From Lachnospiraceae bacterium (lineage in GTDB: Bacteria; Bacillota; Clostridia; Lachnospirales; Lachnospiraceae): a stretch of 53,018 nucleotides of DNA. Both the position numbers and the translations under genes were made by a program. The notes under the pieces are model-generated. The model was not told where the DNA came from. It searched no databases and was given only the letters and a program-made list of their open reading frames with translations. Numbering within the stretch: position 1 is the stretch's first letter; every line of letters starts with the position of its first letter. Location of the stretch: the NCBI GenBank assembly GCA_021199235.1, contig JAJQIL010000142.1, positions 1-53,018 on the forward strand. Reading direction: 5' to 3'. Shown here piece after piece: positions 3,202 to 45,900 of this stretch.

Positions 3202-3333
3202 ATGATTACTCATTTTATTGCTTTTTGTTTGGGCGGCTTTTTCGGAGTCGTGACGATGTGTATGTGTTTCGCAGCAAGTGAAGAGGACCGCAGAAATGGA
3301 AGCTATGACGAAAAGGAGGATGTAAAGGAATGA
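3202..3333 (+). CDS. DUF3789-type small membrane protein
   Basis: A 43-residue protein, MITHFIAFCLGGFFGVVTMC followed by a charged tail ending YDEKEDVKE. One hydrophobic segment (residues 3-25) with a GG pair and Cys residues, then a short acidic cytoplasmic tail, is the signature of the DUF3789 family common in Firmicutes ICEs upstream of par genes. The ATG at 3202 follows GGAGGAATTTT. Its stop overlaps the parA start (ATGA at 3330-3333), so translation is probably coupled. The function is unknown. Confidence 0.8.
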   Translation: MITHFIAFCLGGFFGVVTMCMCFAASEEDRRNGSYDEKEDVKE

Positions 3334-4148
3334 ATACACAGATTATCTGCCTCGGAAACCAGAAAGGCGGAGTCGGAAAAACCCAGACCTGTGTGAATCT
3401 TGGTGTTGATCTGGCACGGCAGGGAAAGAAAGTTCTGATTGTGGATCTCGATCCCCAAGCCAGCGCGACAATCAGTCTGGGTTTTCCACGTCCAGATCAG
3501 ATTCCGGTTACGGTATCAACGGTCTTAGGAAAAATTTTGACGGATCAGCCAATTAATCTGGGAGAGGGAATACTGCATCAGGCAGAAGGGGTTGACCTGA
3601 TGCCAGCGGATATTCAGCTATCCGGTATGGAAGTTTCTTTGGTGAATATGATCAGCCGGGAGACGGTACTGCGCCAGTATCTGGATACAGTGAAAAGTCA
3701 GTATACGCATATTCTGATCGATTGCCAGCCATCGTTGGGAATGCTTACTGTCAATGCTCTGGCAGCGGCCACGCGCATTATTGTGCCAGTTCAGGCTGAA
3801 TATCTTCCGGCTAAAGGATTGGAACAGCTTTTACAAACAGTCGGTAAGGTCAGGCGGCAGATTAACCCGACATTACAAATTGATGGGATTCTTCTGACTA
3901 TGGTAGATAAACGGACTAACTTTGCGAGAGAAACGGCGTCACTGATCAGGGACACTTATGGAAGAAAAATCAATGTGTTTAAAACAGAAATTCCGTTTTC
4001 AGTAAAGGCAAAAGAAGCAACTGCTGCAGGTATGAGTATTTATGCTTATGACCCTAAAGGGAAAGTGGCGGGAGCGTACATGGAATTGACGAAAGAGGTG
4101 TTGAATCTTGAAAAGCAGCGCGAAAAACATAAAACTTGCGTCCGTTGA
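3330..4148 (+). CDS. parA: ParA-family partition ATPase
   Basis: The 272-residue protein carries the deviant Walker A motif KGGVGKTQT at residues 12-20, the A' motif VDLDPQAS near residue 39, and the Walker B-like ILIDCQPS near residue 127, followed by QAEYLPAKGLEQLL. This is a Soj/ParA-type ATPase without an N-terminal HTH. With ParB it would segregate the circular form of the element by ATP-dependent binding to the nucleoid. Its 3' end overlaps the parB start by 41 bp, and its start overlaps the DUF3789 gene, so these three form one translationally coupled operon. The family call is firm. Confidence 0.96.
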   Translation: MNTQIICLGNQKGGVGKTQTCVNLGVDLARQGKKVLIVDLDPQASATISLGFPRPDQIPVTVSTVLGKILTDQPINLGEGILHQAEGVDLMPADIQLSGMEVSLVNMISRETVLRQYLDTVKSQYTHILIDCQPSLGMLTVNALAAATRIIVPVQAEYLPAKGLEQLLQTVGKVRRQINPTLQIDGILLTMVDKRTNFARETASLIRDTYGRKINVFKTEIPFSVKAKEATAAGMSIYAYDPKGKVAGAYMELTKEVLNLEKQREKHKTCVR

Positions 4149-5067
4149 TGATCTATTTAAGACGGACGAAGGACGGGCGGATGATGAGAGGGAACGTGTG
4201 CAGGAGATTGCGATTTCTGAACTGCATCCCTTTAAAGATCATCCCTTTAAGGTTTTGGATGATGAAAAAATGATGGAGACAGTTGAGAGTGTACAGCAAT
4301 ACGGCGTTCTGGTTCCGATTATAGCACGACCGTCGTCAGAGGGAGGATATGAGATTGTTTCCGGTCATCGTCGGCATAGAGCCTGTGAACTGGCAGGGAA
4401 AGAGACAATGCCGGTGATTGTGCGTGAATTGGATGATGATGAAGCCGTTTTGCTGATGGTGGACAGTAATCTGCAAAGGGAGAGCATTCTTCCGAGCGAG
4501 AGGGCATTTGCTTTGAAGATGAAGTTGGATGCAATGAAAAGACAGGCAGGACGACCTACCAAAGAAAATTGTTCCCAAGTTGGGAACAATTTATCGAAAC
4601 GTTCAAGCGAACTTCTTGCTGAAGAGATGGGACAAAGCAAGAATCAAATCTTTAGATATATTCGCCTTACGGAACTGATTCCTCCATTACTGGATATGGT
4701 GGATGAAAAGAAGATCGCCTTTAATCCAGCATATGAGTTGTCATTTCTGAAACCAAAAGAACAGGAAATGTTGATTGAAACAATGGATTATGAGCAGGCA
4801 ACGCCGTCACTCTCCCAGGCTCAGCGATTGAAGCAGTTCAGCCAGGATGGACGATTAACGGAGGATTCTATGCTTGCGATTATGTCTGAGGAAAAGAAGC
4901 CAGTACAGGACCGGGTAATGTTTACATCGGACGTCCTGAGAAAGTATTTTCCGAAGGACTACACGCCGAGAAAGATGGAGGAAACGATTATCCAGCTTTT
5001 GGAACAGTGGAAACAAAGGCGGCAGATGCAACAGGAACAGCAGCGGAAAAAACGTAATTCCCGGTGA
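4108..5067 (+). CDS. parB: ParB/Spo0J-family centromere-binding protein
   Basis: A 319-residue ParB. The N-terminal nucleotide-binding domain contains IVSGHRRHRACELAG (residues 84-98) and DSNLQRESILPSERAF (about 119-134). An HTH follows at SSELLAEEMGQSKNQIFRY (about 166-184). The C-terminal region is charged and Q-rich, probably for dimerisation. The start is TTG at 4108, chosen because AGAGGTG lies at the right distance and no better start is available. Between the two domains the peptide NCSQVGNNL is encoded by a 27-bp DNA palindrome (4566-4592), which may be the parS site itself. The protein would load on parS and stimulate ParA. Confidence 0.94.
   Translation: MKSSAKNIKLASVDDLFKTDEGRADDERERVQEIAISELHPFKDHPFKVLDDEKMMETVESVQQYGVLVPIIARPSSEGGYEIVSGHRRHRACELAGKETMPVIVRELDDDEAVLLMVDSNLQRESILPSERAFALKMKLDAMKRQAGRPTKENCSQVGNNLSKRSSELLAEEMGQSKNQIFRYIRLTELIPPLLDMVDEKKIAFNPAYELSFLKPKEQEMLIETMDYEQATPSLSQAQRLKQFSQDGRLTEDSMLAIMSEEKKPVQDRVMFTSDVLRKYFPKDYTPRKMEETIIQLLEQWKQRRQMQQEQQRKKRNSR
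4566..4592. promoter_or_regulatory. 27-bp perfect palindrome inside parB, candidate parS site
   Basis: The arms AAATTGTTCCCAA (4566-4578) and TTGGGAACAATTT (4580-4592) are exact inverted complements around a single G. A 13-bp perfect arm inside a coding region is not expected by chance. It encodes the inter-domain peptide NCSQVGNNL, so it can be accommodated without disturbing a folded domain. A parS embedded in or beside parB is a known arrangement for ParABS systems; its assignment here is inference. Confidence 0.6.
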
Positions 5068-5762: not shown

Positions 5763-7124
5763 ATGGAGAATAAATTCGAGTTTGATTATTTCCATGAGTA
5801 TGAGTCGGAACAGTTCTCCTTTTACCGTATCCCAAAGCTGTTGTTTACGGATGAATATTTCAGGAAGCTGTCCTGCGACGCGAAGGTGCTGTATGGGCTG
5901 ATGCTGGACCGGATGTGCCTATCTCTGAAAAATCACTGGGTGGACAACGAAAAGCGGGTTTACATCATTTTCACGATTGAACAAGTGACAGAATACCTGA
6001 ATTGCGGCCGGGATAAGGCAATGAAGATTCTTGCGGAACTGGATATGAAAAAGGGGATTGGTCTGATTGATCGTGTGAAACAGGGATTTGGGAAACCGGA
6101 TGCGATCTATGTGAAGAACTTTATCGCAAAACCAAAGCAGCAGCCGGAAGATTCTGAAATGGAGAGAGGAGAAGACTCAGATTCGAATTTGAAGAATGAT
6201 GGAAAGCAGCCAGAGCAGAGAGAAGGTGAGATAGCGGGATGCACTGAAAATAAAAAGGCACAGGCAGAGAGGAATGAGTGCAAGACGGCTGAATCCGGCG
6301 GCAAGGATTATGGGAATGTGCCAAAGGAACCGGAATCTATTGCAGAGCGAAAGAAAGATTTCTGGAACAAAGCAGAAGTGAGTCTTGTGGATGCGGTTTT
6401 GCACGAATATGAGTCCGCCGAAGATTCACAGGGAGGAGTAATGGGTGGCTCTGGAAGCGGTTTTACAAGAGTCAGTGGATACCCAATTCTCGGAGCCGGC
6501 GAAGCGGATTTGCCGCAGTCGGAATCTCCGATTTATCGAAGTCGGGAAAAGCGACTTGTCGAGGTCGGAAAAAACGACTTCATGCAGTCGGATCATCCGA
6601 CTTCCAGGGGTCGGGAAAGCCCACCTGTAACCGTCGGAAAAACCGACCCTAATTATACTGATATTAATAATACTGATATGAGTGATACTGATCTGATCAA
6701 TCAATCAACGCATGCGTGCGTGCGCGCGGAGCCGATGCCGGATGTGATTGATGGGATGGATGCGATAACAACCTACACAAACATCATCAAAAAGAACATT
6801 GAGTATGACACCCTGATTTTTGATGCCAAATCAGATTCAGACAAGATGCAGATCGACATGATTGTATCACTGATGGCGGAGACAATTGCGGTGAAACGTG
6901 AGACGGTGACGATTGCGAAAGCAGAATACCCATATCCGTATGTGGTGAACAAGCTGCTGCGTGTAGGGCAGAATCATGTCCAGTACATACTGTGGTGCCT
7001 GAGTAAGCAGACGGGCAAGATCTGGAATATCAAGGCGTATGTGCTTGCCTGCATCTTTAACGCGCCAACGATGATAGATGCGTATTATCAGGCGGAGGTA
7101 AGTCATGACTTGTACGGACAGTAA
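5763..7124 (+). CDS. RepA_N-type replication initiator with DUF6017 C-terminus
   Basis: A 453-residue initiator. The N-terminal winged-helix domain (residues about 8-115) has FYRIPKLLFTDEYFRKLSCDAKVLYGLMLDRM, the RepA_N signature. A long polar linker (about 120-310) follows. The C-terminal domain (about 330-453), containing YPYPYVVNKLLRVGQNHVQY, fits DUF6017. Start at 5763 follows GGAGGTG. The linker DNA carries six 15-bp palindromes at exact 23-bp steps (6518-6647), probably the origin itself. Since 23 is not a multiple of 3, the peptide encoded by successive repeats differs, which indicates selection on DNA. In RepA_N plasmids of staphylococci and enterococci the origin is known to lie within rep. 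It would replicate the excised circle. Confidence 0.9.
   Translation: MENKFEFDYFHEYESEQFSFYRIPKLLFTDEYFRKLSCDAKVLYGLMLDRMCLSLKNHWVDNEKRVYIIFTIEQVTEYLNCGRDKAMKILAELDMKKGIGLIDRVKQGFGKPDAIYVKNFIAKPKQQPEDSEMERGEDSDSNLKNDGKQPEQREGEIAGCTENKKAQAERNECKTAESGGKDYGNVPKEPESIAERKKDFWNKAEVSLVDAVLHEYESAEDSQGGVMGGSGSGFTRVSGYPILGAGEADLPQSESPIYRSREKRLVEVGKNDFMQSDHPTSRGRESPPVTVGKTDPNYTDINNTDMSDTDLINQSTHACVRAEPMPDVIDGMDAITTYTNIIKKNIEYDTLIFDAKSDSDKMQIDMIVSLMAETIAVKRETVTIAKAEYPYPYVVNKLLRVGQNHVQYILWCLSKQTGKIWNIKAYVLACIFNAPTMIDAYYQAEVSHDLYGQ
6518..6647. repeat. Six palindromic repeats at 23-bp intervals, candidate origin iterons
   Basis: Units of the form GTCGG-N5-CCGAC lie at 6518-6532, 6541-6555, 6564-6578, 6587-6601, 6610-6624 and 6633-6647, with centres 6525, 6548, 6571, 6594, 6617 and 6640. 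The fourth and sixth are perfect; the others have one or two changed bases in the right arm. A degenerate seventh unit fits the same register at 6495-6509. The spacing is exact and frame-breaking, inside the initiator's linker. Confidence 0.9.
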
Positions 7125-7210
7125 CGTGCAACGGATAGAAAGCCGAAGGAAAAATTGCAATGCCTGGGCGGTGCTGCACGAAAGAATGTGGATACGAACG
7201 GAGGAAGAAG

Positions 7211-9651: not shown

Positions 9652-10500
9652 ATGAGAAAAACAGAATTAATTTGTGGGATCGCTGCGGTTGCGCTTGTAG
9701 TTGTGGGAATTGTAATGGCTGTGCGCGTATATTTGGGTTACCAGAAAGGCAGGGATGGCTATGATGATATTGAGTCTGTGTTTACCAGTGTCTCTGATGG
9801 GCAGCTGGATGAATCTGACAAACCAGAGGACAATGATTTGAAATCGGGTACGGGGAATATAACAGATGAAAATGAGTCAGATGCAGAGAGGGATGATTTG
9901 ACGGAAAGCCTTCCGGATGATGCGCCGGAGCGTATCACGGTCGATTGGGATTCGCTGGCGGATGCTTATGAAGACTGTATTGCCTGGATTCATATTCCTG
10001 CTGTGGAGATATCTTATCCGGTGATGCAGTCAGAAGATAATGATTATTACCTCCATCGGGCACCGGACGGCAGCTATCTGTATGCCGGAAGTATTTTCAT
10101 GGATTACCAGAATCACGCAGACCTGGAGGATTACAATACAGTCATCTATGGTCATAACATGAGGGATGGAAGTATGTTTGCGAAGCTGAAAAGGTTCCGT
10201 GATTCAGAGACGATGGTTCTGTGTCCATATATTTGGATTTATACGCTGGATGGAGATTTCCTTTACCGTATTTTTTCTGTCCATAGTGTGGATGCGGTTG
10301 GCAATGCCTACACAATTTCATTTGAAGACTATGGGAGTTATGCGGAATGGTTTGATAAAATGACAGGTGAATCGGAAATTGATACTGAAGTGACAAGTTC
10401 TGACATCGACCGTGTTGTGACATTATCTACCTGTAATGGGAACAGTGCCACCCGCCTTGTAGTGCAGGGCGTTCTTGTGTGGGCAGAGTATGGCAGATGA
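9652..10500 (+). CDS. Class B sortase
   Basis: A 282-residue membrane-anchored transpeptidase. Residues 8-28 (CGIAAVALVVVGIVMAV) form an N-terminal signal anchor; residues 35-100 are an acidic linker. The catalytic domain starts at CIAWIHIPAVEISYPVMQ. The catalytic His is in VIYGHNMRDGSMF (about residue 167), the Cys in TLSTCNGN (about residue 262), and a C-terminal Arg is in ATRLVVQG. The YGHNM and TLSTC context and the long helix before the Cys fit class B. The likely substrate is the giant adhesin 6.4 kb downstream, whose C-terminus has SVKTG, a membrane helix and a basic tail; C. difficile SrtB recognises the related (S/P)PxTG. The pairing is inference. Confidence 0.92.
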   Translation: MRKTELICGIAAVALVVVGIVMAVRVYLGYQKGRDGYDDIESVFTSVSDGQLDESDKPEDNDLKSGTGNITDENESDAERDDLTESLPDDAPERITVDWDSLADAYEDCIAWIHIPAVEISYPVMQSEDNDYYLHRAPDGSYLYAGSIFMDYQNHADLEDYNTVIYGHNMRDGSMFAKLKRFRDSETMVLCPYIWIYTLDGDFLYRIFSVHSVDAVGNAYTISFEDYGSYAEWFDKMTGESEIDTEVTSSDIDRVVTLSTCNGNSATRLVVQGVLVWAEYGR

Positions 10501-14425: not shown

Positions 14426-14521
14426 TGAAACTGAGTGAAATTTTTGTAAACAACGTGAAACTTTTTGCAACCGGATGAAACCTGGTGCAACCGAATGAAA
14501 CTTCATGCAACCCGCTGCAAC
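14426..14521. repeat. Ten-unit array with a 10-bp period, core TG(A/C)AAC
   Basis: From 14421 each successive 10-bp block ends in TGAAA or TGCAA: ggacaTGAAA, ctgagTGAAA, tttttGTAAA (shifted by one), caacgTGAAA, cttttTGCAA, ccggaTGAAA, cctggTGCAA, ccgaaTGAAA, cttcaTGCAA, cccgcTGCAA. Nine of the ten cores fall in the same register, and most are followed by C. The second half alternates TGAAAC and TGCAAC, giving a weak 20-bp higher period. The period matches one helical turn, so all cores face the same side of the DNA. The array lies in a gene-free 700 bp (14163-14865). A protein-binding or partition-like array is the best reading. Confidence 0.85.
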
Positions 14522-16870: not shown

Positions 16871-19800
16871 ATGCGAATTAAAAAAATAAAAAAGGCCATC
16901 TCTATGATGATGGCGGTCACGATGACGGCATCCGGAGTGATGTCGTTTTTTCCGTCTTATAGTTATGCGGAAAGTGAAACGGTTGCTGAAACAGAAATGA
17001 CAACAGAAGCTACAACTGAGGCGGGAACGGAAACAGCGGCGACAGAATCAGAAGCTGCTGAAACGGTAACCACAGATACTGAAGCAGCGGAAACGGAAAA
17101 GGAAGCAGTGAAATCCTCTTCGGAAGCAGAGACAGAGGCAACGGATTCAAATAAGGAGGAGACAGAAAACTCTTCTGAAGATCCGGTGGAGTATGAACTG
17201 CTGCTGCCTTATTACGAAGACTGCACTTACACCTATGATACGGGAAAACTGAAAGAAGCGAAAGCAGACGGCAGCCTGGTCCTGTCATATGAAGCTGGAG
17301 AACAGGTAGCGTTTTCGCTGGCTTATCCGGAAGGGGTATCCCTAGACGAGATCCACGTATATGACAGCAGCAACGCCGGATATGACTTTTCCTGGGATGA
17401 TGCAGATCAGAACGTAGCCATATCTTTTACAATGACGGCGGCAGATACACGGTTGGAGCTGGCATTTTCGGAGATAACGGAAGAGAGCGATCTGGAAACC
17501 GAAACTGAGGAAGCTTATAACTTCATTGCTTTTGAGGTGTCTGAAGGCGGACAGATGGTGATCGGCTTTTCGGATGGTACCTCAGAGACGGTAACTTCTG
17601 ATATGCTGAGCGATGACTGGGATTACGAGATTAATTTCCCGGTATCAGAGGAAGTTACAATCTCAGGCACAGCGAACGATGGCTATGTCTTAGACAGCGT
17701 GGTTGTGACAAACGAGAATGGAGAAACAATTGCTACATCGGATGTACTCCCGATTACCGTGGTCGCAAATGCAGATTATAAGATTACCGTCCGCTTGAAT
17801 TTTGTAGCTGCTGATACGGAAGCGGAAGCAACAGAAGAATCGGGAACAGAAGATGAAGCTGAAAATGCGCAGGATGCTTCTGAAACTGAATCCGGCACAG
17901 ACGGTGAAAATTCTGCTGAATCCGAGACAGATACCGAAGCAGATAGCGATTCTAATATCGAGGCGGAAACAGAGACGACAGATACGGATTCCAATATTGA
18001 AGCAGAAACAGATGCGGATACAGAAAGCACTGATGAAGCAGAAGCTGAATCCGGAATCGAGACGGAGCTGGAATCTGAATCTGTTGCAGAAGCGGAGTCA
18101 GAGGCAGATTCTGAAAATGAAAACGAAGAAACGAATAATGATTCAGACGAGGATGACGAATTCACTACAGACAGTATTTATTACCTGTCGGATGATGAAA
18201 TGCTCTCTTATATCCGCCCGGAGATCGGTGAAACGGTTGTCCTGAGCGCACAGTACGTGTATTACGAGGATACGGATTTTGATTATAAATCCTACATCCC
18301 GGAATCGGATACCCTGACGGGTGCAACGGTCACTTGGGAGAGTGGCGAGATCACCTGGACGCCGAGCAGCAATGTCTGCTATTCGATCACCTACAAGGCT
18401 GTCCTGGATGACGATGATTCGTATTACTGGTACATCGAAGTGCCGTTCTATGTGATCAGCTCTGCATCTGTGGCAACAGTGTGGTCGGACAGTTTTGAAG
18501 GCACGATCTATCTGAAAAATGAGCAGTCATCTGACTACAGCGGGATAATCCCGGAAAAGGTCGGTACGGTGCTGGAAGGAGAAGCCCTTACGATAGTTGC
18601 CGGGGAAGGATTTGTCCTGAATGATGTAAACCTTGGCTACGACGCGGACCTGTTCCTGCAGACGGTCTATGACGATGGCGGGTTCGATGCGGATACAGCA
18701 GGCATATACACGGTAGTTTATGAAGTGGTTTCCTATGAGAATCCGGAATACTACTGGTATGTATCCTGCACGGTGACGGTTACGGAAGCTCTTTCCACTG
18801 AGAACGCGGTCACGGTGCATATCGCAAGCGGTGAGCTGGCAGCAACCGTGACAGACCGTGAAGGAATCAACTATTCCGCCACCTATGGAAGCGACTATCT
18901 GGCGGACGGAAACATTGCGAGCATCATGGTATATCCGGCATGGCCGGGGTATGATGATATCGAGCCGGAACTCTCCGTTTATAAGAATGGTGAGATGATC
19001 AACGCAGATGAAGTGATCGTTTCGGCAACGGTGGATGGCAGCAATACCGTTTATACACTTGCGGATGATTTTGAAGCCGGGGAAGACACCTGGGTTTTCT
19101 ATATTGACTTCCCAACCTATACATCTGACGCGATCAAGTCGGATGAACGCCGTACAGAAGACTACGCTGGATACGAAGAACTGGCGGGGGTCTATACGGA
19201 TGTAGACTCAGAGAATGGCAGTACGGATTCCGGGATCATGACGGTAGCAACTACCACAACAAGCAAAACCTGGACTGGCTACAGTTATACGCTTTCAAAC
19301 GCGAGCAGCCGGGTAACGAATTATGGCTGGGTAAGCAACTTCACCGGCTATCGTTACTGGCGTTTTAATTTCTCCAGTGACTTCCTGTCTGACCTGGATG
19401 ATTATCTGGCGGATTATGGGGTGGAGCTTGCCGAGAGCCTTTCCTATGTCACGATCGGGTGCAACCAGCAGGACGGTTCCCATATGGCGTACAGCAGCGC
19501 AAGCTGTATTTCGTCTGTGACTGTGACGACTACGCTGTATAAAAACAGCAGCGGTGATTATTATAAGGTGAAGATTGCGGTATCTACGACTGGTAAATCC
19601 GGCACATCGCAGGGCAATTACCAGAATTATTATGGCAGTACAGAAAAGACCCTCGATACTTCAACAGGCAACCTGAAAATCATTAAAAAGTCAACCTCCA
19701 GTAATTTTGTCAAGGAATTTGTAAATGTGACACTGGATACAAATTTCCAGATTTATACGGACAGCTCCCTGGATTCGGAGTACCTGATCGATACGGTAAA

Positions 19801-22800
19801 AATCCGGGATGATGCAGACGAGGATGAAGAATCTTCCACGAAGCTGACGGAGACGGTGGCCCTGGAAGAAGGAACCTACTGGGTTGTGGAGAGTAAACGT
19901 GCCGCAGGCCATGCATGGGATTCCGATGGAACAAGTACGAATGTATATAAGGTAACGGTCACTGCTGGTGAAACGACTTCGCTGACTGTGACAAACACGG
20001 CCTTCTATTTCAACGGGAACTTCGTTTATAAGACGGATGAAGCAACCGGGGAGCCTCTGGCAGATGCTGTATTCAGAGTAGTAGGCACTTATGACAACGA
20101 AGAGGTAGCGACCTGGTATTTTAAGACAGATGAAAACGGCTATATCTCGTATGATGAAAACCATTACCTGAGTTCCTGGAATGGGAATGACAGTGATGCG
20201 CTTTATAAATACAGCAGCAGCGTGGGCTATGCTCTGCCAAACGCCATGACACTTACTGTTACGGAAGTGGAAGCGCCGGATGGATATCTTTTGTCGGAAA
20301 ATTCCCAATCTATGAAGATAAAAGCGTCCAGTGACAGCGACAGCACTTATCTGAAAGCGGATCTGTCCGATTTTAATACGCCACTGAACTTTACGAACGA
20401 ACGGGACAGCGGATACCTGTATCTTGTAAAAGTATCCGATAATACTTCCGTGACGGAAGGAAATGCCCTGTATTCCGTGAGTAACGCAGTATATGCGGTG
20501 AAGGATACTTCCGGGACAGTTGTTGCGACGCTGACAACCGATGATTCCGGGACATCGAATATGGTGGAACTGGAATCGGGACTCTATACGGTAACGGAGA
20601 CAACCGCTTCGCCGGGCTTTGAAAAAGACACCACGATCTATACGGTGAATATCGAAGCAGGACAGACGACCGTAGTAAACGCTTCCGGAGGCGGAACCGT
20701 GCCGGAGACACCGGTTACGTATACTCTGGACTTACTGGTGGTCAAGGCGAAAGAATACGCTACAGACATGTCGCTTTCGGGCGCACAGTTTGAAGTGAAG
20801 TTTTATGCCGGGGCTTCTGACGCGAGCGGCTCTGTGACAAGGACCTGGGTGCTGCAGAGCGACAGTGACGGCAATGTCATGCTGGATGCGTCGCATCTGG
20901 TATCCGGAGACAGTTTCTATTATGACAGCAGCAATCATGTTGCGCTCCCGCTTGGTTATCTGACCATTGAGGAAATCAAAGCTCCGGAAGGATACCAGGT
21001 TTCTGATGAAATCATCACCTATACAATGACTGCGGATGGCATTTCTCATACTGGAAATACGACGGTAGAAAATGTGCCAAAGGTTGTTGACGAACCGGTC
21101 TGGGGCGGCATTGCGATCACCAAAGCAGACAGTGAGACCACAGATGGAAAGCAGCAGGGCGATGTGGAATCCCTGGAAGGTGCTGTCTATGCCATTATTA
21201 ATAAGAATTCTTATGCAGTATCAGTAAAAGGGGATACGGAGAAAACTTACGCGAGCGGCGAGGAAGTCATACGGATCACGACGAACGCGGACGGATATGC
21301 GGAAACCGGCGCAGTTCTGCAGTATGGCACCTATGAAGTCGTAGAAGTGACAGCACCGACCGGCTACACGGCGGACGGTACGAATACAGATTTTGAGTTT
21401 ACGATTCCAGACGATGGCGGAATTCTGACTTATACGGTATCGAACGAGGTGATCCGGGGCGGCTTTAAAATCCAGAAGTCTGACTCGGAACTGAACGGCA
21501 CTTATGGCACCTCTGGCCTGGATGTTTCAGACGGCGATACGCTTTATATTGGAACACAGGGGGATGCAACCCTGGCAGGTACAACCTTTGTTTTGACAAA
21601 TATGTCTGAAAATGCAGTGGTTGTAGATGGTGTGACCTATCAGCCGGGCGAGACAATCGCAACGTTTGTGACAGATGAAAGCGGCTATATTGAGACAGCG
21701 AGCGATTACCTTCCGTATGGCACGTACAACATCAAGGAGACAGAACCGCCGACAGGCTATACTTCGGAAGGCGTGTACCTGAATACCACCTTCACTATCC
21801 GTGAGGACGGACAGATGGTAGATCTTACGACTAAAGATTCTGCTACACAGAATCGTGTCATCCGGTTTGATATCCAGATCATCAAATTCCGTGACACGTT
21901 ATCTTCAGAGGACGCGACGGATGATGTGGAGCCAATCGAAGGTGTTGTGTTTGGTATTTACCTGGAATCCACCGGAGAACTGGTGATGACGATCACGACA
22001 GACGAGGACGGCGTGGCTACAACTGCTGACCCGGAGAATTATCCATATGGGCGGCTGCCTTACGGAACGTATGTTATTAAGGAGCTGGAGTATCCGGATG
22101 ATGTGACGCCTGTAGAGGATTTTGTAGTGACCGGCATGATTGATGGAAAGACTTATTCCGGCATTTACAAAAACGACAAGCCGATTGAATCCGGCATTAC
22201 CGTGGTAAAAGTAGATGCGGAGACCGGGAACACGATCCCGGTAGCGGGAACAGAGTTCCAGATCCTGGATGCAGATAAGAACGTGATCACGTTCAGCAAC
22301 TATTATCCACACTACGAAGAGATCACGAACTTCGTGACAGACGAGAGCGGTTCTGTTACGCTGCCGTCAAAGCTGGCAAAAGGAACCTATTACATCCGCG
22401 AAATCAATGCCCCGGAGGGTTATGTCCTTTCGGAAGACATCGAGTTTGAAGTAACGGAGTACAATGCATGGCCGGATACGATCACGGTCGAGCTGACGGA
22501 CACACCGGAAAAAGGACAGATTGTCGTGAGCAAATACGATGCGGACACTGGAGAAGCGCTTGCCGGCGCGGTGTTTGCGGTATTTGCGAATGAAGATGTT
22601 GTCACGCCGGATGGTACTACCCGCTACGTGAAGAACCAGTATATTGAGACTTTCACGATTGGTGAGGACGGAATCGGCATGACCAGTGAGCTGTATCTCG
22701 GCAGTTATTATGTGCAGGAAATTCAGGCTCCGGAAGGATATTGCCTGGACGATACACGTATGGAAGTGACGCTGGAATATGCAGACCAGAATACATCGAT

Positions 22801-27362: not shown

Positions 27363-27953
27363 ATGCAGATACCAGTAAACAAGGACATAGACGATTACAA
27401 AGACGATTTCTTTAAAGGAATGACACTAAGGCAGACAACGATGTGCGTGTTGACACTGGCGGTCGGTATCGGATGTTATTTCCTGTGTAACAGTGTGCTG
27501 GGATTGCCGCAGACAGTTTCGCTGTATCTGGTGTTCCCGGCTGCATTGCCTTTTGCGGCTGCCGGATTCCTGAAAATTGACGGAATGCCGCCGCTCGAGT
27601 ATCTGAAAAGACGACGGGAGGTAACGCAGACACCATTGTATCGTTACCGCCCTATGATTTTTGAGCGTGCAGAATCAGGGAAGGGCGACTGGATGGAGAA
27701 CTATATGACAGACGGAGAATGTCCGGGGCAGGAACAGCAGGATATTGATATAAAGGAAGCAACTGCGGAAGAACAGGGGGGTTTTTATAGAGAGCAGGCG
27801 CATCGTATAAAGCGCAAAGACAGAAAGAAACTGCTTGCACCTTATGAGGATGAAGGCTCTGGTCTGTTGCGGGAGCCGGACTCAGATAGTGAGGGGAGCA
27901 AAACGGAACTACAGACAGCAAATGATGAAACCGGGGTGATGGGAAAAATATGA
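27363..27953 (+). CDS. PrgI family (VirB3-like) conjugal transfer protein
   Basis: A 196-residue protein. The start MQIPVNKDIDDYKDDFFKGM leads to two hydrophobic helices (TTMCVLTLAVGIGCYFLCNS and VSLYLVFPAALPFAAAGFL) and the conserved IDGMPPLEYLKRR motif. This is PrgI, the Firmicutes counterpart of VirB3. Residues 100-196 are a charged extension. It overlaps the VirB4 gene by ATGA (27950-27953). It sits in the inner-membrane channel complex. Confidence 0.88.
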   Translation: MQIPVNKDIDDYKDDFFKGMTLRQTTMCVLTLAVGIGCYFLCNSVLGLPQTVSLYLVFPAALPFAAAGFLKIDGMPPLEYLKRRREVTQTPLYRYRPMIFERAESGKGDWMENYMTDGECPGQEQQDIDIKEATAEEQGGFYREQAHRIKRKDRKKLLAPYEDEGSGLLREPDSDSEGSKTELQTANDETGVMGKI

Positions 27954-30439
27954 AAATGGCAGATTGCAAGGTAAAGACGGAGAAGCTTTTTAAAATACCA
28001 AAATACGTGCAGGAGCTTATCCCGGTTTACCGAATCAGTGAGGATGGCATTTTTGAATTGGAAAAGAAGCCGGATGGGGTGAAGAAGCTGTATGACCGGG
28101 CATATCTGTTTGAAGATGCCAACTTTGCGACCATGGATGATTACGAGAAGGAGGATTTTCTGAAGCTCTACTGTGGGATGCTGAACAGCCTGAATGTGTC
28201 GTTTAAGATCAGTATCATGAACAACAACCGCGATATGGGACAGGTCCGGCGGGAGGTTTTCCTCCGCTGCAAGGACAAACAATTCAAAGAACTGGTAGAT
28301 TCTTTGAACAACCATATCGAGGATTCATTGGTGAAAGGCCGTGCCGGGATTGACCAGGCGCGGATTTTTATTATCAGCTGCAGGCGGGAAAATGTGGGGC
28401 AGGCAAGGGATTACTTCCACTCTATGGAAGCGAATCTGATGCTCTGTTTTGGACGGATGAAGTCAGCTCTGATCCCATTGAATGCTGAGGAACGGCTCCG
28501 CTATCTCTATGCTTTCTACAATCTGGGAAGCGAAGCGGAATACCACTTTGATTTTAAGCGGGCGCTGAAAAGAAACCGGGATTGGAAAAGCTACATTTCC
28601 CCGATGTCTATCCGCCAGTGCCAGGATGAATATGGGAAATTTGATGGGATGTCGCTGCAGATTGACGGGCGGTATGTCCGGGCACTGTATCTGCCGAAGT
28701 GGCCGAATACAGTGGACACCTCGGTGGTGCAAAAGCTGATGGGAGGCTCACAGCATGTGATTCTGACGATTGATGCTGCAGCAATCCCGCAAGAGGTTAC
28801 ACGAAAAACACTCGATGATCTGTACCTGCAGAACAGCCGGGCGATTGAGAAGCAGCAGGAGGCGAGGAATAATGCGCGGGCGTGGTCATCAGATATCACC
28901 TATGAACGGCGCAGAGAGAAAGAAGAACTGGAATCCTACATGGATATCCTGAATGAGAATGACGAGAAGATGTTTTATGTGGGGGTTTACGCGATCCTTA
29001 CTGCTGACAGTTTAACTGAGCTGGATAATGATGCAGTGGCGTTCTGTCAGACTGCGGAGAGTGAAGGGTTTGCCTTCCAGCCGGCAAGATGGAATCAGAT
29101 TGACGCTGTGAACACAGCGCTGCCGACCGGGGCGCGGTATTGTACGGACAGCATGAGGCCGTTGTTTACACAGCCGCTTGCCGCAGTGACACCGTTTGTT
29201 GTGCATGAACTGTACCATCCGGGCGGGCAGTTTTACGGCGTGAATCAGGTATCGAAAAATGTGCTGATCGGAGACCGGAAACGGCTGAAAAACGGGAACG
29301 GGTTTATTTTGGGAACGACTGGGTCTGGCAAAAGTTTGTATGCGAAAATCGAGATTACCGAAGTATTTCTGAGGTTGGAGGATGACATTATTATTATCGA
29401 TCCTCAGAACGAGTACAAAGGGGTTACGGAATATCTCGGTGGCCAGTACGTGGAGTTTGGCTCCGGAGCCGGAAATTATATCAATCCTTTGGACACGGAC
29501 ACACTGGAATTTATGGAGACAGACAAGTTTTTGGTAGATAAAACCCAGCTGATGTGCAGCCTTTTCACGCAGATCAAAGGAGAAATTACCGGGCAGGAGC
29601 GTTCCCTGATCGGGCGGTGTGTAAAACGGGTTTATGAACCGATTTTGAAAAAACGGGGAAGACGAGCCGCAGCACCGACTTTACTTGATTTCTATAACGA
29701 ATTGGGGGAACAGGATGAATTAGTAGCGCATGAACTGAGACTTGATCTGGAAATCTTTGTCAACGGTGCACTGGATATGTTCTCAAAGCCGACGAATGTG
29801 AATGTCAGGAACCGTCTGACGGTTTATGGAATTGCGGACCTGGGAGAGGAACAGAGCGGCATTGGGATGCTGATCATGCTGGAAGGTATCCGCGCCCGGA
29901 TTGCCCGTAACGCCGTAAAAGGAAGGGCAACCTGGCTTTATGTAGACGAATTCCATAACATGACGGCGCACCAGTACACCGCGAACTTTTTTGAAAAGAT
30001 CTGGAAAGAAGTCCGAAAATTGGGCGGCATCTGTACGGCAATCACGCAGAATATCGCGGATTGTCTGGCATTAAAGACGATTGAGACGATGCTTTGCAAT
30101 TCCGAGTACATCGCCTTTTTTAACCAGTCGGAGATTGAGATGGAAATTTTGCGCAATACACTGCGGATATCCGATAATCTTCTGGAGTACGTGCAGAACA
30201 CGCCGCCCGGCTGCGGCCTGCTGAAATTTGGCGGTGGAACGTTTATTCCGGGAGATATGAGAATCAAGCCTTCAAATATACTCTATAGCATTGCAAACAC
30301 AAATTTCCACGAAATTCAGCGAGAGAAGCGTGGAAAGCAAAAAGAATTGAAAAATGCGGTTCAGAATTTGCCGGAAAGTGTAAGGGAGAGTATTCGGGAC
30401 GCCCCTACAGAAAAGGAGGCGGTTTATCTGGGAGAATGA
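27950..30439 (+). CDS. VirB4-like conjugation ATPase
   Basis: An 829-residue ATPase. Walker A is FILGTTGSGKSLYAK (about residue 450), Walker B is TWLYVDEFHNM (about residue 660), and the intervening IIIIDPQNEYKGVTEYLGG and IARNAVKGRATWLYVDE match VirB4/TraC-like enzymes of Firmicutes ICEs. The first 400 residues hold the CagE/TrbE-like N-terminal domain. Length is normal for this family (about 800). It powers the T4SS assembly and DNA transfer. The next gene follows 36 bp later. Confidence 0.95.
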   Translation: MKMADCKVKTEKLFKIPKYVQELIPVYRISEDGIFELEKKPDGVKKLYDRAYLFEDANFATMDDYEKEDFLKLYCGMLNSLNVSFKISIMNNNRDMGQVRREVFLRCKDKQFKELVDSLNNHIEDSLVKGRAGIDQARIFIISCRRENVGQARDYFHSMEANLMLCFGRMKSALIPLNAEERLRYLYAFYNLGSEAEYHFDFKRALKRNRDWKSYISPMSIRQCQDEYGKFDGMSLQIDGRYVRALYLPKWPNTVDTSVVQKLMGGSQHVILTIDAAAIPQEVTRKTLDDLYLQNSRAIEKQQEARNNARAWSSDITYERRREKEELESYMDILNENDEKMFYVGVYAILTADSLTELDNDAVAFCQTAESEGFAFQPARWNQIDAVNTALPTGARYCTDSMRPLFTQPLAAVTPFVVHELYHPGGQFYGVNQVSKNVLIGDRKRLKNGNGFILGTTGSGKSLYAKIEITEVFLRLEDDIIIIDPQNEYKGVTEYLGGQYVEFGSGAGNYINPLDTDTLEFMETDKFLVDKTQLMCSLFTQIKGEITGQERSLIGRCVKRVYEPILKKRGRRAAAPTLLDFYNELGEQDELVAHELRLDLEIFVNGALDMFSKPTNVNVRNRLTVYGIADLGEEQSGIGMLIMLEGIRARIARNAVKGRATWLYVDEFHNMTAHQYTANFFEKIWKEVRKLGGICTAITQNIADCLALKTIETMLCNSEYIAFFNQSEIEMEILRNTLRISDNLLEYVQNTPPGCGLLKFGGGTFIPGDMRIKPSNILYSIANTNFHEIQREKRGKQKELKNAVQNLPESVRESIRDAPTEKEAVYLGE

Positions 30440-38597: not shown

Positions 38598-39035
38598 ATG
38601 GCAAACAGAACAGTCTGGAAAGCATTCCGCTGTACGGAGGAAGAGGCTGCGAAGATTGCGGAACAGGCAGAACGCAACGGTTTATCCGAATCGGATTACA
38701 TGAGAAGAAAGATTTTTCAACTTCCGCAGGAGACGGATCAGCTGCTGAGGGAATTGAAAAATTCTATTTTGAAGATTGGGACAAATATCAATCAGGTGGT
38801 GCGTTCGTGTAATTCCAGACGTTTTATTACGAACATGGATTACCGGGATCTTACGGAATATCTCGAAAAAATCGACAGGAAGTATTATGAGACGGTACAG
38901 CTGCTGCAGGTCCAAAATGAAAATTATTTTTATGCTTCTGAACATGATGATGAAATAGAAAATGAAAATAATCGTGAGGCCGATGCAGCAGACGCTGGTA
39001 AAGCAAAATCGAAAAAAGCGAGAAGAGGTGGTTAG
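38598..39035 (+). CDS. MobC-like relaxosome accessory protein
   Basis: A 145-residue protein. The N-terminal ribbon-helix-helix part (NRTVWKAFRCTEEEAAKIAE, then NGLSESDYMRRKIF) is followed by the MobC signature NINQVVRSCNSRRFI (about residues 62-76). The C-terminus is acidic then basic. It would bind oriT and help the relaxase nick. The start follows AAAGGAGGCGGTATCTG. Its stop at 39035 is 4 bp before the relaxase start, so the genes are coupled. Confidence 0.88.
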   Translation: MANRTVWKAFRCTEEEAAKIAEQAERNGLSESDYMRRKIFQLPQETDQLLRELKNSILKIGTNINQVVRSCNSRRFITNMDYRDLTEYLEKIDRKYYETVQLLQVQNENYFYASEHDDEIENENNREADAADAGKAKSKKARRGG

Positions 39036-39039
39036 AGAT

Positions 39040-40602
39040 ATGGCGGTAACTCGTCTGCTTAGAATCAAAGAGACGAAAGGAAGCAACAAAGCTTCGCACT
39101 TGAAGAAAAATTTATTTTATATCTGCCGGGACGAGAAGTGCGGGAATGGCCTCTGGATCGGTGGGAACGCTGGCAGGACTCCGGAGATGATTTACCGGAC
39201 GATGGTTGAGAATAAAAAATTCTGGGGCAAGGAGGACGGAAGCCAGGCTTTCCACTATATGCTTTCCTTCCCGCCGGACTGCGGTATCGATGAAGCAACG
39301 GCATTCCAGATTGCAGAAGAATTCTGCCGGGAATTGCTGGGGGACGATTATTATTATGCGTTTGCTGTCCACAATGACAAGGCGCATATGCACGTACACA
39401 TCACGTTCGATTCAGTATCAAAAACGGACGGATTAAAATTTCACTCACCCAAAGGTGACTGGGAAAAGCGCATCCAGCCGATTACGGACCGCATCTGCGA
39501 AAAATACCATCTGCCGACTTTGGAGTATGACGAGGATCGGCGCGGACGAAATTACGGCGAGTGGAAACGGCCAAAGCAGATGGAAAAGGGAGAGTATTAC
39601 AGCTGGACGGATATTATCCGGGATGATATTGACGAAGCGATTGAGCACTCGGAAAGCTATGAGGCCTTTCTCGACTACCTGCGCAGTGATGGATATACGG
39701 TGACGAGAAACGGAAAGTTTCTTTCATTGCTTCCGGAAGGTGCCGGGCGGGCTTTTCGTACCGGAAGGCTCGGAGACGGTTATGCGAAAGAAGAAATTAT
39801 TCAGAGAATCGCGGACAAGGGCACCAAACCGCAAATCGAAAATCGTTACAAGACATACGGTGACCGTCAGGAAATGCGCGAGGTAATCTACGCGAAAATC
39901 GTCCGCTGCCCCGGTTGGAAGATGACACCGTTTCAGAGGAGCTTCTGGAAAAGATGGAATAACACTTATTTCATCCGGAAACCGGATCGGATGACAAAAG
40001 AGCAGAGGGTTCGGAACAAGCAGGATATTCTGGAGATTCGCAAATTATCCGATGCCATCCGGTATATGGTAGATTGTGATATCGGTGATGAATCCGATCT
40101 GGAGAAAAGGAAGGATGAACTGACAAAAGAACGGGAGGCCATGGAACATGAACTTTCGGCAACCCGGACAAAGTATTATAAGAAGCAGCCGTTTTACTAT
40201 GTATCCAGGTATGAGAAACTGAAAGAGCAATACCAGTCTGATCCTCAGCCTGAGACGAAGCAGGAAATGAAAGAATTGATGAAACTGATTGAAGCCGTCT
40301 GCCCATACGGGGAGGCGGTTTTTCAACGGAATGAAGTAAAAGAAAAAATGGATAAGTGCCGCGGTGCCTTGAAAGATAACAAAAAAGAGCTGAGGATTGT
40401 CGAAGATACGTTCAAACTTTTTTGTCAGATGGAGCCGTCGGCAAGAAAAAGAGATATTTCGAGAGAGGATCATAGAGACAAAACCAAAGAAAAAAGAGAG
40501 GACGCAAAATATGGGACAGAGACAGGCAAGAGCAAAAAAATCCGAAGCGGCGCGGCGGGCCGAAAAACGACAGGCACGGGCATCGGGAAAGACACAGAGT
40601 AG
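39040..40602 (+). CDS. MobP-type relaxase
   Basis: A 520-residue relaxase. The catalytic Tyr candidate is Y27 in KNLFYICRDEK. The HUH motif is HNDKAHMHVHITF (about residues 129-141), with FHYMLSFPPD before it. This matches the relaxase/VirD2-like family (PF03432) of Firmicutes ICEs. The C-terminal 300 residues are charged and helical. ATG 39040 is chosen over an in-frame 38962, which lies within mobC. Its end overlaps the next gene by 92 bp. It cleaves oriT and leads the strand into the recipient. Confidence 0.93.
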   Translation: MAVTRLLRIKETKGSNKASHLKKNLFYICRDEKCGNGLWIGGNAGRTPEMIYRTMVENKKFWGKEDGSQAFHYMLSFPPDCGIDEATAFQIAEEFCRELLGDDYYYAFAVHNDKAHMHVHITFDSVSKTDGLKFHSPKGDWEKRIQPITDRICEKYHLPTLEYDEDRRGRNYGEWKRPKQMEKGEYYSWTDIIRDDIDEAIEHSESYEAFLDYLRSDGYTVTRNGKFLSLLPEGAGRAFRTGRLGDGYAKEEIIQRIADKGTKPQIENRYKTYGDRQEMREVIYAKIVRCPGWKMTPFQRSFWKRWNNTYFIRKPDRMTKEQRVRNKQDILEIRKLSDAIRYMVDCDIGDESDLEKRKDELTKEREAMEHELSATRTKYYKKQPFYYVSRYEKLKEQYQSDPQPETKQEMKELMKLIEAVCPYGEAVFQRNEVKEKMDKCRGALKDNKKELRIVEDTFKLFCQMEPSARKRDISREDHRDKTKEKREDAKYGTETGKSKKIRSGAAGRKTTGTGIGKDTE

Positions 40603-42935: not shown

Positions 42936-45900
42936 ATGGCAAAAATTAATGAGGTAATAAAACTGGCAGAGGATCATGCTGCTGAGATAACGGCGTCGCC
43001 GGAGAAGTGGATGGATTATCTGGATACATCTTCACGCTTGTACCGCTATTCATTCGAGGACACCCTGCTGATCCACGCGCAGCGTCCGGATGCGACTGCC
43101 TGTGCGGAATTTGATGTCTGGAGCAAGAAAATGAACTGCTGGATTAGGCGGGGGTCAAAGGGAATCGCGTTGATTGATAAACAGACAGGTGCCCGCCCCA
43201 GGCTGCGCTATGTCTTTGATGTGTCGGATACGGTTCCGTCAAGGAACGGCAGGCAGCCCATCCTGTGGCAGCTGAGTCCCGATCACCGCGACGCAGTCAG
43301 GGATCATCTTCTGGAAGCATATGATATTGATGACAATTATTCTGAGGATCTGCGTTCAGCGCTGATGGGAGTGGCTATTGTCCAGACAAAAAATTATCTG
43401 GATGATGCGGTGGAGGGTCTGTTTACGGAACCCGGAAGTTCTTCACTTGGTGCAGATACGGAAACAGTCCGGAAAGAATTCCGTTATCTGATGGCGATGA
43501 GTATTTTATATACGCTTTTCAGACGGTGCGGGCTTGAAACGGCAGATTATGTGGGAGCAATTGACTACAGGGATATTGTAAAATACCGGGATATCGGAGT
43601 CCTGACGCAACTGGGTAATGCGGTATGGCAGGCCAGTGAGCCGGTGCTGATCGATATCGGACGAACGGTGCGGAAAATAATTTTGGAAGAGAGCCGCGAC
43701 AAAGTTGCAAATCAGAATCGGGGAGGCTACAATACTTCCAACAGGACAAATCAGGGACCTGAGAAAACGGAAGCCGCTCATCCGGCGGTTCGGAAAGCAG
43801 AAGAATCCGAAACGAAGCAGCAGGCAGTGCAGGAATCTGATAAGTCAGAAACAGACCATAAAGCGGAACACACAGCAGAACAAAAAGGAGGAACTGATCA
43901 TGAAACTGAATTATTACCGCAGCGGGGATTATCTTTATCCGAATCTGACCATCACAGACGAGACACCGGAAGAGAGCATCGGGAAGTACGGGATGCTCCG
44001 GGAGACGTACCTGAAGGAGAACAAGCGGGGGATGTACTCATCACTCCTGCTGCAGGGGCAACTGAACAGTTATCTGGCGGACATCGAGAAGACCGCGCAG
44101 GAACGGCTGGAAGTCCTGATGGAAGGCCTGCAGAAAGCATATCCGGGACCGGACAAGAGCGACCAGATGGCGTGGGTAGCCCACCAGAACAGCCTGAAGG
44201 AGATGGCGGAAGAGACCATTTATCAGGAACTGATTTACACCTGATTGAAGATCTGCCTGAAGAAAGCAATGGAACAGTAACTGATGAAGCAGAGATGGAA
44301 ATCGTCTCTGCTTTATCTTTGCCCGTAATTCCGACAATGGAGGAGCAAATACGTGACATCGAGGAGCGTCAGGCTGCGCTCTATGCCGGGGAGATTTCGA
44401 TATCGTCGGAAGTGGTGGATGAAATCCTGCGGACCGGAGGTAATAAAGAGCATAGCGTACTGCGTCTGATTTATAATTTTATGTCAGATCAGACAGATGA
44501 GGAATACACGGAGTTTGTCCGCACGGAATATGGCACAGGTGGCAAAGGTTTTGAGATTGATGGGAAAGAGTATTCGGTGTGGTTTGACCCGTCTGGAATG
44601 CAGATCGTGCTCGGACATACGGTGCATGACCAGATTCTGGGTAAAGCATTTTTATCATGGGAGAACGTGAGCAACCGTATTCATCAGCTACTGAAGCAGG
44701 GCGAATATGCATTGCAGCCGGTGCTGGATGCAGCGCGTAGCACTGTGATAAGGGAGCACGCGCAGTCTCTGGCTTTTTTTGAAAGGGAAATGGCGGACGG
44801 TGTTGCGGAACACGTTTTTGCGGACTTAGAGCCATTTTCCGGTGGCTTTCCGGATATTGAGGAAAAGCTGTCGAACCTTCTTGCACAGCATGACTTCCTG
44901 GTTGATCTGAATGCGCGCCTGGAAGGGTTTGTGAATGTTTATGAAAACAATCATGATCTGATACGCTCCCGCCTTTATAACCCGGAGAAAGTCCTGCGGC
45001 AGTTTCGACGCTTGGCGTTAAAAACGGTGCCGTATCAGGTTCGGCCAGGTTTTCAGTGGCAGGAACACAGGATGTTTATCACACAGGATGAAATCGATGC
45101 GTATCTGGCAAGGGGAGGTGCGTATTCAGATGGCAGGCTCTCTACGTATTCGTACTATCTGCAGAATGATTCCATGGCAGATCGAACAAACTTTATTAAA
45201 GAAAAATATGGTACCGGCGGCCAGAGCAACGCCCTCTCAGGTGCGGATGATTCCTGGGCTGATTATGATGGTAAGGGGCTGCGGCTCAGTAGAAATGGAA
45301 TCCGTAATCCGGAAACGGAGATTTTGCTGCCGTGGAGAAGGGTGGCGCAGAGGATTGATTCGCTGATTGAAAATGGACGGTTTTTATCTGCCGCAGACTA
45401 TGACCATATGGCCTCGTATGAACGCAGAACGATGGCTGCGAGAATCCTGAGTTTTTATGGAGGAATGCCGCCGAAGATTCCACGTCCGTTTGCCTATCAG
45501 CAGGATCAGGTACTTGCTTATGGGGGCAGTCTGGAAGATTTGACAGAAGCGCTGGAAGACCGCGAAAGAATGGAAACCGTTCTGAAGGCCATGGATGAAG
45601 CTTTGGTTGCGCTCCCACTTGATGATTCAAGGTATAAAGAGCGTTCCGGGATTCTTGCAAATATGCGTGGGTACGTGGATGGCAGCTATACCCTGTTTCC
45701 CAATAAGAATGAACGGAAGGAACCGTTGCTTGAAAACCAGCAGATGTCATTGTTTGACTATTTGGATGCTGGTGCTTTAGGGCCAGTAGTTGATGATCAG
45801 GAAGTGACTGAATCAGCCCCTGAAAATACCGTGGCAGAGCATACTGATACCGATGTGTTAGATGCTGGTGTTACAGAAGAAAAGCAACAGGAGACAGAGT

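Follow-up and report, generated by a model that had tools for sequence, protein, structure and literature searches.

We confirmed that the 23-bp array inside repA is a real feature of the DNA and, from the sequence comparisons described here, we regard it as very probably the platform that the element's own RepA_N initiator binds and, together with the AT-rich stretch that immediately follows, the replication origin. The window refers throughout to the whole stretch of DNA that was analysed (53,018 nucleotides). A joint reading, which we favor with somewhat less assurance, is that residues around 83-85 in the recognition helix of RepA set the half-site while the 23-bp two-dyad lattice (GA-half-AAA-half-TC) is fixed, so that origins, and probably incompatibility classes, would be predictable from the protein across chromosomal mobile elements, plasmids and phages under one RepA_N code. 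Were a few residues enough to read the half-site, origins could be located and specificity groups predicted straight from sequence, and origin choice by RepA_N initiators would become testable with natural protein-DNA pairs. Intragenic RepA_N origins as such are already known. The residue-level code and the family-wide lattice look new, and a search of open-licence papers, which is not proof of absence, found no residue-level code for RepA_N iterons.

The array in repA and the DNA that follows it

Six 15-bp units, with starts at exact 23-bp steps, were observed from 6518 to 6647 within the repA frame of 5763-7124 (Table 1). The original prediction described these as six GTCGG-N5-CCGAC units with a strict 23-bp step. 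The spacing was exact, while the motif proved to be a consensus, with the GTCGG left arm perfect in all six units and the full palindrome perfect in two (6587 and 6633). A possible degenerate seventh unit, also part of that prediction, was present at 6495 and in register. The pattern GTCGGN6CGAC with at most one mismatch was found 15 times in the window (7.55 expected), a count matched by 3 of 100 shuffles, and 12 of the 15 matches were the six units read on both strands. Such motif counts do not by themselves decide whether the array is real; the 23-bp spacing is decisive. The self-match of repA at the array period was 0.674, and none of 2000 synonymous-codon shuffles of the gene reached this value (mean 0.421, maximum 0.609). 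The exact pattern was observed 32 times in the 3.47-Mb genome (23 forward, 9 reverse), with the array in the window as its sole cluster.

Table 1. Coordinates of the features observed in the window.
Feature	Position	Strand	Basis or description
ParA-type partition ATPase	3330..4148	+	Pfam AAA_31/CbiA
ParB-type partition protein	4108..5067	+	Pfam ParB_N and HTH_ParB
repA, RepA_N initiator gene, 453 aa, DUF6017 C-terminal domain	5763..7124	+	PF06970 + PF19481
RepA_N winged-helix DNA-binding domain (NTD), residues 19-93	5817..6041	+	Pfam PF06970 E 6.1e-30
Recognition helix, residues 83-93	6009..6041	+	NTD model; R83, D84 and K85 covary with half-site
Degenerate unit, in register with array	6495..6509	+	GCCGG-CGAAG-CGGAT
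Unit 1	6518..6532	+	GTCGGAATCTCCGAT; left arm GTCGG, right arm CCGAT
Unit 2	6541..6555	+	GTCGGGAAAAGCGAC; left arm GTCGG, right arm GCGAC
Unit 3	6564..6578	+	GTCGGAAAAAACGAC; left arm GTCGG, right arm ACGAC
Unit 4	6587..6601	+	GTCGGATCATCCGAC; both arms perfect, GTCGG / CCGAC
Unit 5	6610..6624	+	GTCGGGAAAGCCCAC; left arm GTCGG, right arm CCCAC
Unit 6, last unit	6633..6647	+	GTCGGAAAAACCGAC; both arms perfect, GTCGG / CCGAC
Candidate DNA-unwinding element, AT-rich 15-bp in-frame repeat	6649..6693	+	TRF 6650-6692, period 15; stability
DUF6017 C-terminal domain, residues 333-450	6759..7112	+	Pfam PF19481 E 7.6e-30
Conjugation genes PrgI, VirB4 (CD1110 family)	27363..30439	+	Pfam PrgI; NCBIfam NF045971
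MobA/VirD2-type relaxase	38962..40602	+	Pfam PF03432 E 2e-31

The host gene had been called RepA_N-type from the letters alone, and both the Pfam match and the fold of its product agree. An AlphaFold2 model of the RepA NTD, built from 24 sequences, reached a pLDDT of 86.9 and was used in place of the full-protein model (7 sequences), which was poor (pLDDT 34.8). All eight PDB matches of the NTD model with E <= 0.001 were RepA_N structures, among them 4pql, 4pt7, 4pta and the Rep-DNA complex 5kbj. Residues 83-93 formed the second helix of the helix-turn-helix in this model. By likeness to the C-terminal domain (CTD) of pSK41 Rep, the DUF6017 domain is the probable replisome-recruiting part of the protein.

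By nearest-neighbour stability, the lowest-stability 45 bp of the entire 53-kb window started at 6649 (tied with 6650), adjoining the last unit. In 52 of 73 relatives, against 5.7 expected by length, the gene was least stable in a stretch beginning -10 to +60 bp from the end of the array. Codon choice in these 73 genes was biased at the same place: 87.6% of the codons in the 48 bp after the array ended in T, versus 54.0% for the NTD and 51.3% for the CTD, and threonine was encoded by ACT in 163 of 176 cases versus 39 of 212 and 60 of 380, respectively. Isoleucine ATT was without bias after the array (44 of 88). A single reading-frame phase was held by the last unit in 73 of 88 in-ORF arrays. 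This count replaces an earlier, looser one of 56 of 88; half-sites were scored alone in the recount because the first count ran some arrays into the AT-rich stretch. A search for DnaA boxes between 5000 and 8000 found none near the array and one match with a single mismatch at 7187.

Recurrence of the array and constraint on its DNA

We searched 60 relatives, 20 of them with RepA_N, and 392 genomes of the order to which the window belongs (the two sets overlap); at least 149 of the 392 genomes contained RepA_N. A further 120 stretches were fetched, mostly the strongest among the matches listed, so weak RepA_N relatives are under-sampled. Pooling with matches from a search of genome contigs gave 189 loci with 191 NTD reading frames, and 177 loci were left once 3 frames with fewer than 110 bp downstream of the NTD and 11 duplicate stretches had been removed. 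An array was considered significant when the periodicity behind the NTD was reached by none of 60 dinucleotide shuffles (z > 4). A significant array followed the RepA_N domain in 134 of the 177 loci, with a period of 23 bp in 117, 22 bp in 7, 24 bp in 5, 30 bp in 3 and 17 bp in 2. A self-match of at least 0.6 was observed in 126 of the 177 linkers versus none of 177 NTD-coding controls. The 43 loci with no significant array comprised 22 complete-looking genes with a CTD downstream, 8 NTD-only frames of 137 aa and 13 without a recognised CTD. A separate criterion (periods 20-26, self-match >=0.56) also returned 134 arrays, 122 of them at 23 bp, and the dyad symmetry of these was above all 100 column permutations in 73 and above all but at most 5 in 117. 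Removal of arrays with the same inner units left 123, including 111 at 23 bp.

The original prediction had tied the array to one class of ICE, and this did not hold, as RepA_N genes often carried an array in plasmids and phages as well as in chromosomal elements. In viral contigs a single-protein scan gave no relative and an NTD-alignment scan gave 27 loci. The intragenic 23-bp layout is not universal among RepA_N genes; it was not found in rep of four Lactobacillales RepA_N plasmids (L194, L226, L228, L230).

Several loci differed from the common arrangement. Eighteen frames of 137 aa held the RepA_N domain only, all with the helix (H/R)CGRQKA(V/M)N (L066, L067, L069, L092, L093, L094, L096, L098, L100, L107, L108, L111, L113, L117, L121, L123, L130 and L131). 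No strong array was observed behind the domain in these frames, several of which had a weak 22-23-bp periodicity (0.47-0.58), as if decayed; the frames could be repressors or remnants. In two loci (L036, L037) the 23-bp array was preceded in the linker, at about 110-150 bp, by a second tandem repeat with a 15-bp unit, and two others (L213, L221) had a 26-bp periodicity (0.62) about 450 bp after the NTD in place of the 23-bp array.

Alignment of the 111 arrays at 23 bp showed three shared blocks, GA (columns 1-2), AAA (columns 10-12) and TC (columns 20-21), separated by variable half-sites. The common skeleton is GA-half-site-AAA-half-site-TC, and the half-site alone is variable. The unit had been described as palindromic, and the expected dyad was present at the A-tract; the repeat has a second dyad as well, between neighbouring units at TCnnGA. 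In examples compared by eye, 24-bp arrays (L048, L140) carried one additional base at the A-tract and 22-bp arrays (L003, L028) lacked one base at TCnnGA. Because the alternating half-sites are almost evenly spaced, the NTDs may form one continuous filament and not occupy separate dimer sites.

The original prediction also held that the peptide changes with each unit and that selection acts on DNA, and it proposed an alignment of homologues. In this alignment, besides the recurrence of the array in 134 of 177 loci, adjacent units of the surveyed in-frame arrays were 68.7% identical in DNA and 9.3% in peptide (362 pairs), as claimed. Comparison of the window with seven relatives, with units matched backwards from the last and one degenerate unit of L033 added by hand, gave arm divergences of 9, 15 and 15% at codon positions 1, 2 and 3, versus 6, 4 and 29% in the NTD. 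Divergences at the same positions were 31, 13 and 23% in the A-tract and 15, 32 and 39% in the edge columns. The near-equal values in the arms, set against the third-position divergence of the NTD, indicate constraint on the DNA and not on the peptide in the arms, and the claim of selection on DNA is thereby upheld. The array clearly exemplifies a coding linker on which a DNA lattice has been imposed in each of the three reading frames.

With an out-of-frame pitch, the array must break a site wherever the motif puts a stop codon in frame. In arrays of the Q84 class (L050, L060, L061, L065 and others), TTGTGA puts TGA in frame in one unit phase of three, and the left half-site at that phase was replaced, often by TTTCC, leaving about every third site half-broken. 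Would-be in-frame stops were changed in 84 of 84 cases and out-of-frame ones in 64 of 174, a comparison that illustrates the conflict and is not evidence for it because the result follows from taking open frames. Gain or loss of units in threes to keep the frame was suggested by peaks in unit number at 3-4, 7 and 9, and was rejected as unproven, as it found no support among 200 close pairs (NTD identity >=0.7, both in frame, last-unit phase equal), although terminal units are hard to count; unit differences of 0, 1, 2, 3, 4, 5 and 6 were observed in 88, 47, 10, 19, 5, 28 and 3 pairs.

Covariation of the half-site with the recognition helix

Mutual information between NTD columns and half-site bases was calculated from 109 usable proteins (about 55 effective), and the top column was residue 84 (z 16.9), paired with the fifth base counted from the middle of the A-tract. 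The top six columns also included residues 85, 83 and 81, along with two residues beyond the helix, 65 and 51. Average-product correction brought K41, again outside the helix, to the top in a pair with the eighth base, with R83 next. With 51-55 effective sequences, kinship is only partly controlled in these analyses. When pairs were matched by divergence, residue 84 ranked first of 103, 98 and 103 NTD columns in three bands, the third of which overlaps the other two, with a difference of 0.11-0.13 versus an all-column average of 0.003-0.012 (sd 0.022-0.028); residues 85 and 83 were within the next four columns in every band. Among 136 sequences, using pairs with other NTD residues less than 50% identical, half-site similarity was 0.492 where residues 83 and 84 agreed (38 pairs), 0.370 where only 84 agreed (144 pairs) and 0.297 where 84 differed (2455 pairs).

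Residues 81-88 were the best of all blocks of eight adjacent NTD columns in a test with one sequence per 70% cluster (51 clusters), with a partial rho of 0.307 reached in 0 of 1000 permutations. The best block away from the helix gave 0.151, and the rest of the NTD with the helix held constant gave a partial rho of 0.170. The Mantel correlation between NTD and half-site was 0.50 (0 of 300 permutations). For the 85 proteins with both domains it was 0.243 with the CTD held constant, versus 0.147 for CTD and half-site with the NTD held constant. At the fifth base, the usual partner was C for D84 (0.89), G for K84 (0.87) and T for N84 (0.68), pairings that make chemical sense; Q, T and E at this residue were less sharp. 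In the R83 D84 class of the window, a locus with an NTD 59% identical to the window's (L176) had the same half-site, GAAGTCGG. Avoidance of shared half-sites by co-resident copies was not seen: 15 of 29 co-resident pairs were less alike than matched pairs from different genomes, and mean half-site likeness was 0.480 versus 0.490.

Half-sites were then predicted for other sequences by taking over that of whichever training protein had the most similar helix. For validation, 41 loci from phages, plasmids and IMG/VR supplied 45 NTD frames, of which 28 had 23-bp arrays and 27 were usable. Outside the helix, 4 of the 27 matched a training NTD at 99% identity or more; L191 was a duplicate of L197, and L209 entered with two frames and one array. 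The helix-nearest prediction exceeded the training mean in 26 of the 27, and against the nearest neighbour by the rest of the NTD it won in 18, tied in 2 and lost in 7. For the 17 loci below 0.8 identity the means were 0.534 for the helix and 0.429 for the rest of the NTD, with 11 wins and 2 ties for the helix (Wilcoxon p 0.013, from rounded values).

Half-site classes were also written down before four staphylococcal RepA_N plasmids were fetched, and these gave one clear fit, one within a base, one partial fit and one outside the noted classes. L231 (helix CKKEKLTK, NTD of the 4pt7/5kbj type) had AGTTCG in 4 and CGTTCG in 3 of 8 half-sites, and the core GTTCG, as noted for the KE class, in all 8. 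L232 (helix CGNKKITK, 4pta type, NK class) had AATGTC in 3, CGTGTC in 3 and the core TGTC in 8 of 8 half-sites, one base from the noted ATTGTC, and here the rest-of-NTD neighbour was slightly better (0.57 versus 0.53). The rep of an S. epidermidis plasmid (L233, EQ) mixed CTGTGA (3 of 8) with CTTCC (3 of 8), and L227, with an extra residue in its helix, fitted no noted class.

Origin interpretation and the element

RepA_N initiators serve many large Firmicutes plasmids, according to passages of PMC5703833. For pSK41 the same passages report binding of the Rep NTD at four Rep boxes midway along rep, in agreement with the earlier statement that RepA_N origins lie within rep; that a linker-less Rep still serves a functional ori; that replacement of an A+T-rich tract lowers binding tenfold; and that the Rep CTD binds DnaG. 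According to a section of PMC7145576, most characterised RepA_N iterons are semi-palindromic, with the repeats coming together at a poly-A tract. The array in the window looks like an intragenic origin of the pSK41 type: tandem semi-palindromic iterons meet on an A-tract inside rep, the linker peptide is without selection as peptide by both codon positions and adjacent units, and an easily melted stretch lies next to the iterons by stability and codon bias.

With the pSK41 and pTZ2162 origins, as far as these are described in PMC7145576, the window shares the RepA_N NTD, tandem sites in the middle of rep and inverted repeats that meet on an A-tract. It differs in having six clear units and one degenerate unit instead of four, a DUF6017 C-terminal domain, and ParA/ParB and conjugation genes on the element. 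In the staphylococcal rep genes L231 and L232, AT-rich repeats with TGATACTGA come after four 23-bp units, and the half-sites are (A/C)GTTCG and AATGTC/CGTGTC, respectively, versus AGTCGG in the window. Vibrio cholerae PLE satellites also combine a RepA_N domain with semi-palindromic iterons, bound in PLE, and the domain is described as covarying with its own origin as a module (PMC8263062). The PLE iterons are about 30 bp and intergenic, unlike the 23-bp units inside rep, and in the sections of PMC7145576 and PMC8263062 drawn on here the covariation is described for domains, not single residues. Within the dnaD (RepA_N) gene of Streptococcus phage EJ-1, perfect repeats lying where the NTD match ends are marked in the record as a putative rep_origin. 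This gene belongs to a phage and not a conjugative element, and its 23-bp periodicity is weak (0.53).

In the mechanism we propose, the winged-helix domain of RepA would read the half-site (here AGTCGG), mainly through residues 83-85. The half-sites alternate in orientation on the 23-bp lattice, with the A-tract at one dyad and GA..TC at the other, and the DNA directly downstream of the array is predicted to be the easiest to melt. RepA NTDs may fill the lattice cooperatively, straining or opening the 15-bp repeats of the AT-rich stretch, and host replication proteins could be recruited by the DUF6017 domain, leading to theta replication of the circular element. The 23-bp unit would break the reading frame because the geometry of the DNA matters at the array and the linker peptide does not. 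The earlier suggestion that the array is the origin of this ICE class stands as to the origin, since recurrence in the 134 loci, covariation with the helix and the pSK41 layout support that reading and we infer origin activity from them; the restriction to one class was lost.

The covariation supports binding by RepA and not initiation, and unit number varied widely, from 2 to 12 by half-site scoring. Both observations would suit a RepA that binds the array solely for control of its own dosage, through autoregulation, titration or handcuffing, with initiation elsewhere. We consider this unlikely given that the least stable DNA of the whole window adjoins the last unit, that this unit keeps one reading phase in most genes (73 of 88), and that the pSK41 ori maps to the same place in rep in the account of PMC5703833. 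The sites have the tracking of the recognition helix of RepA against their being a parS-like centromere for the adjacent ParA/ParB system, and an equal layout was found in phage genes. The ParA and ParB genes do lie just upstream of repA, and tandem repeats are common in centromeres, yet such a role seems very improbable.

Judged from sequence, GTCGG-N5-CCGAC could pair in RNA, but hairpins in the repA mRNA would leave unexplained why the half-site letters track a DNA-reading helix, as well as the fixed A-tract and the 22-24 bp pitch, and we give this possibility almost no weight. That the array is a decayed origin, inactive in this copy, might be read from its two perfect palindromes among six units and its degenerate seventh. 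It is scarcely credible with repA open over 453 aa and both domains present, left arms perfect in all six units, and arms conserved against the seven relatives at all codon positions. The reading of the array as a RepA-bound origin remains the one we prefer.

The element looks conjugative because PrgI, VirB4, an NlpC/P60 gene and a MobA-type relaxase are located downstream of repA; the relaxase and VirB4 represent conjugation machinery of the kind expected of an ICE. RepA_N replicons, including copies on ICEs, are reportedly covered in a 2009 review by Weaver and colleagues. A Pfam scan of 27 ORFs (the window has 137 ORFs of at least 80 aa) found no recombinase, so the element may be either an ICE or a conjugative plasmid, and the ends of the window share no overlap of 15-400 bp of the sort expected from a circle. 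A 2853-aa protein (16871-25432) had 17 matches to SpaA (prealbumin-like) domains, and with a sortase-domain gene upstream of it (9652-10500) is likely surface-protein cargo. A 3126-aa protein (42936-52316) had methylase and SNF2/helicase matches, and TRF reported a 20-bp (10-bp) tandem repeat, TGAAACTTCATGCAACCGAA, at 14456-14521.
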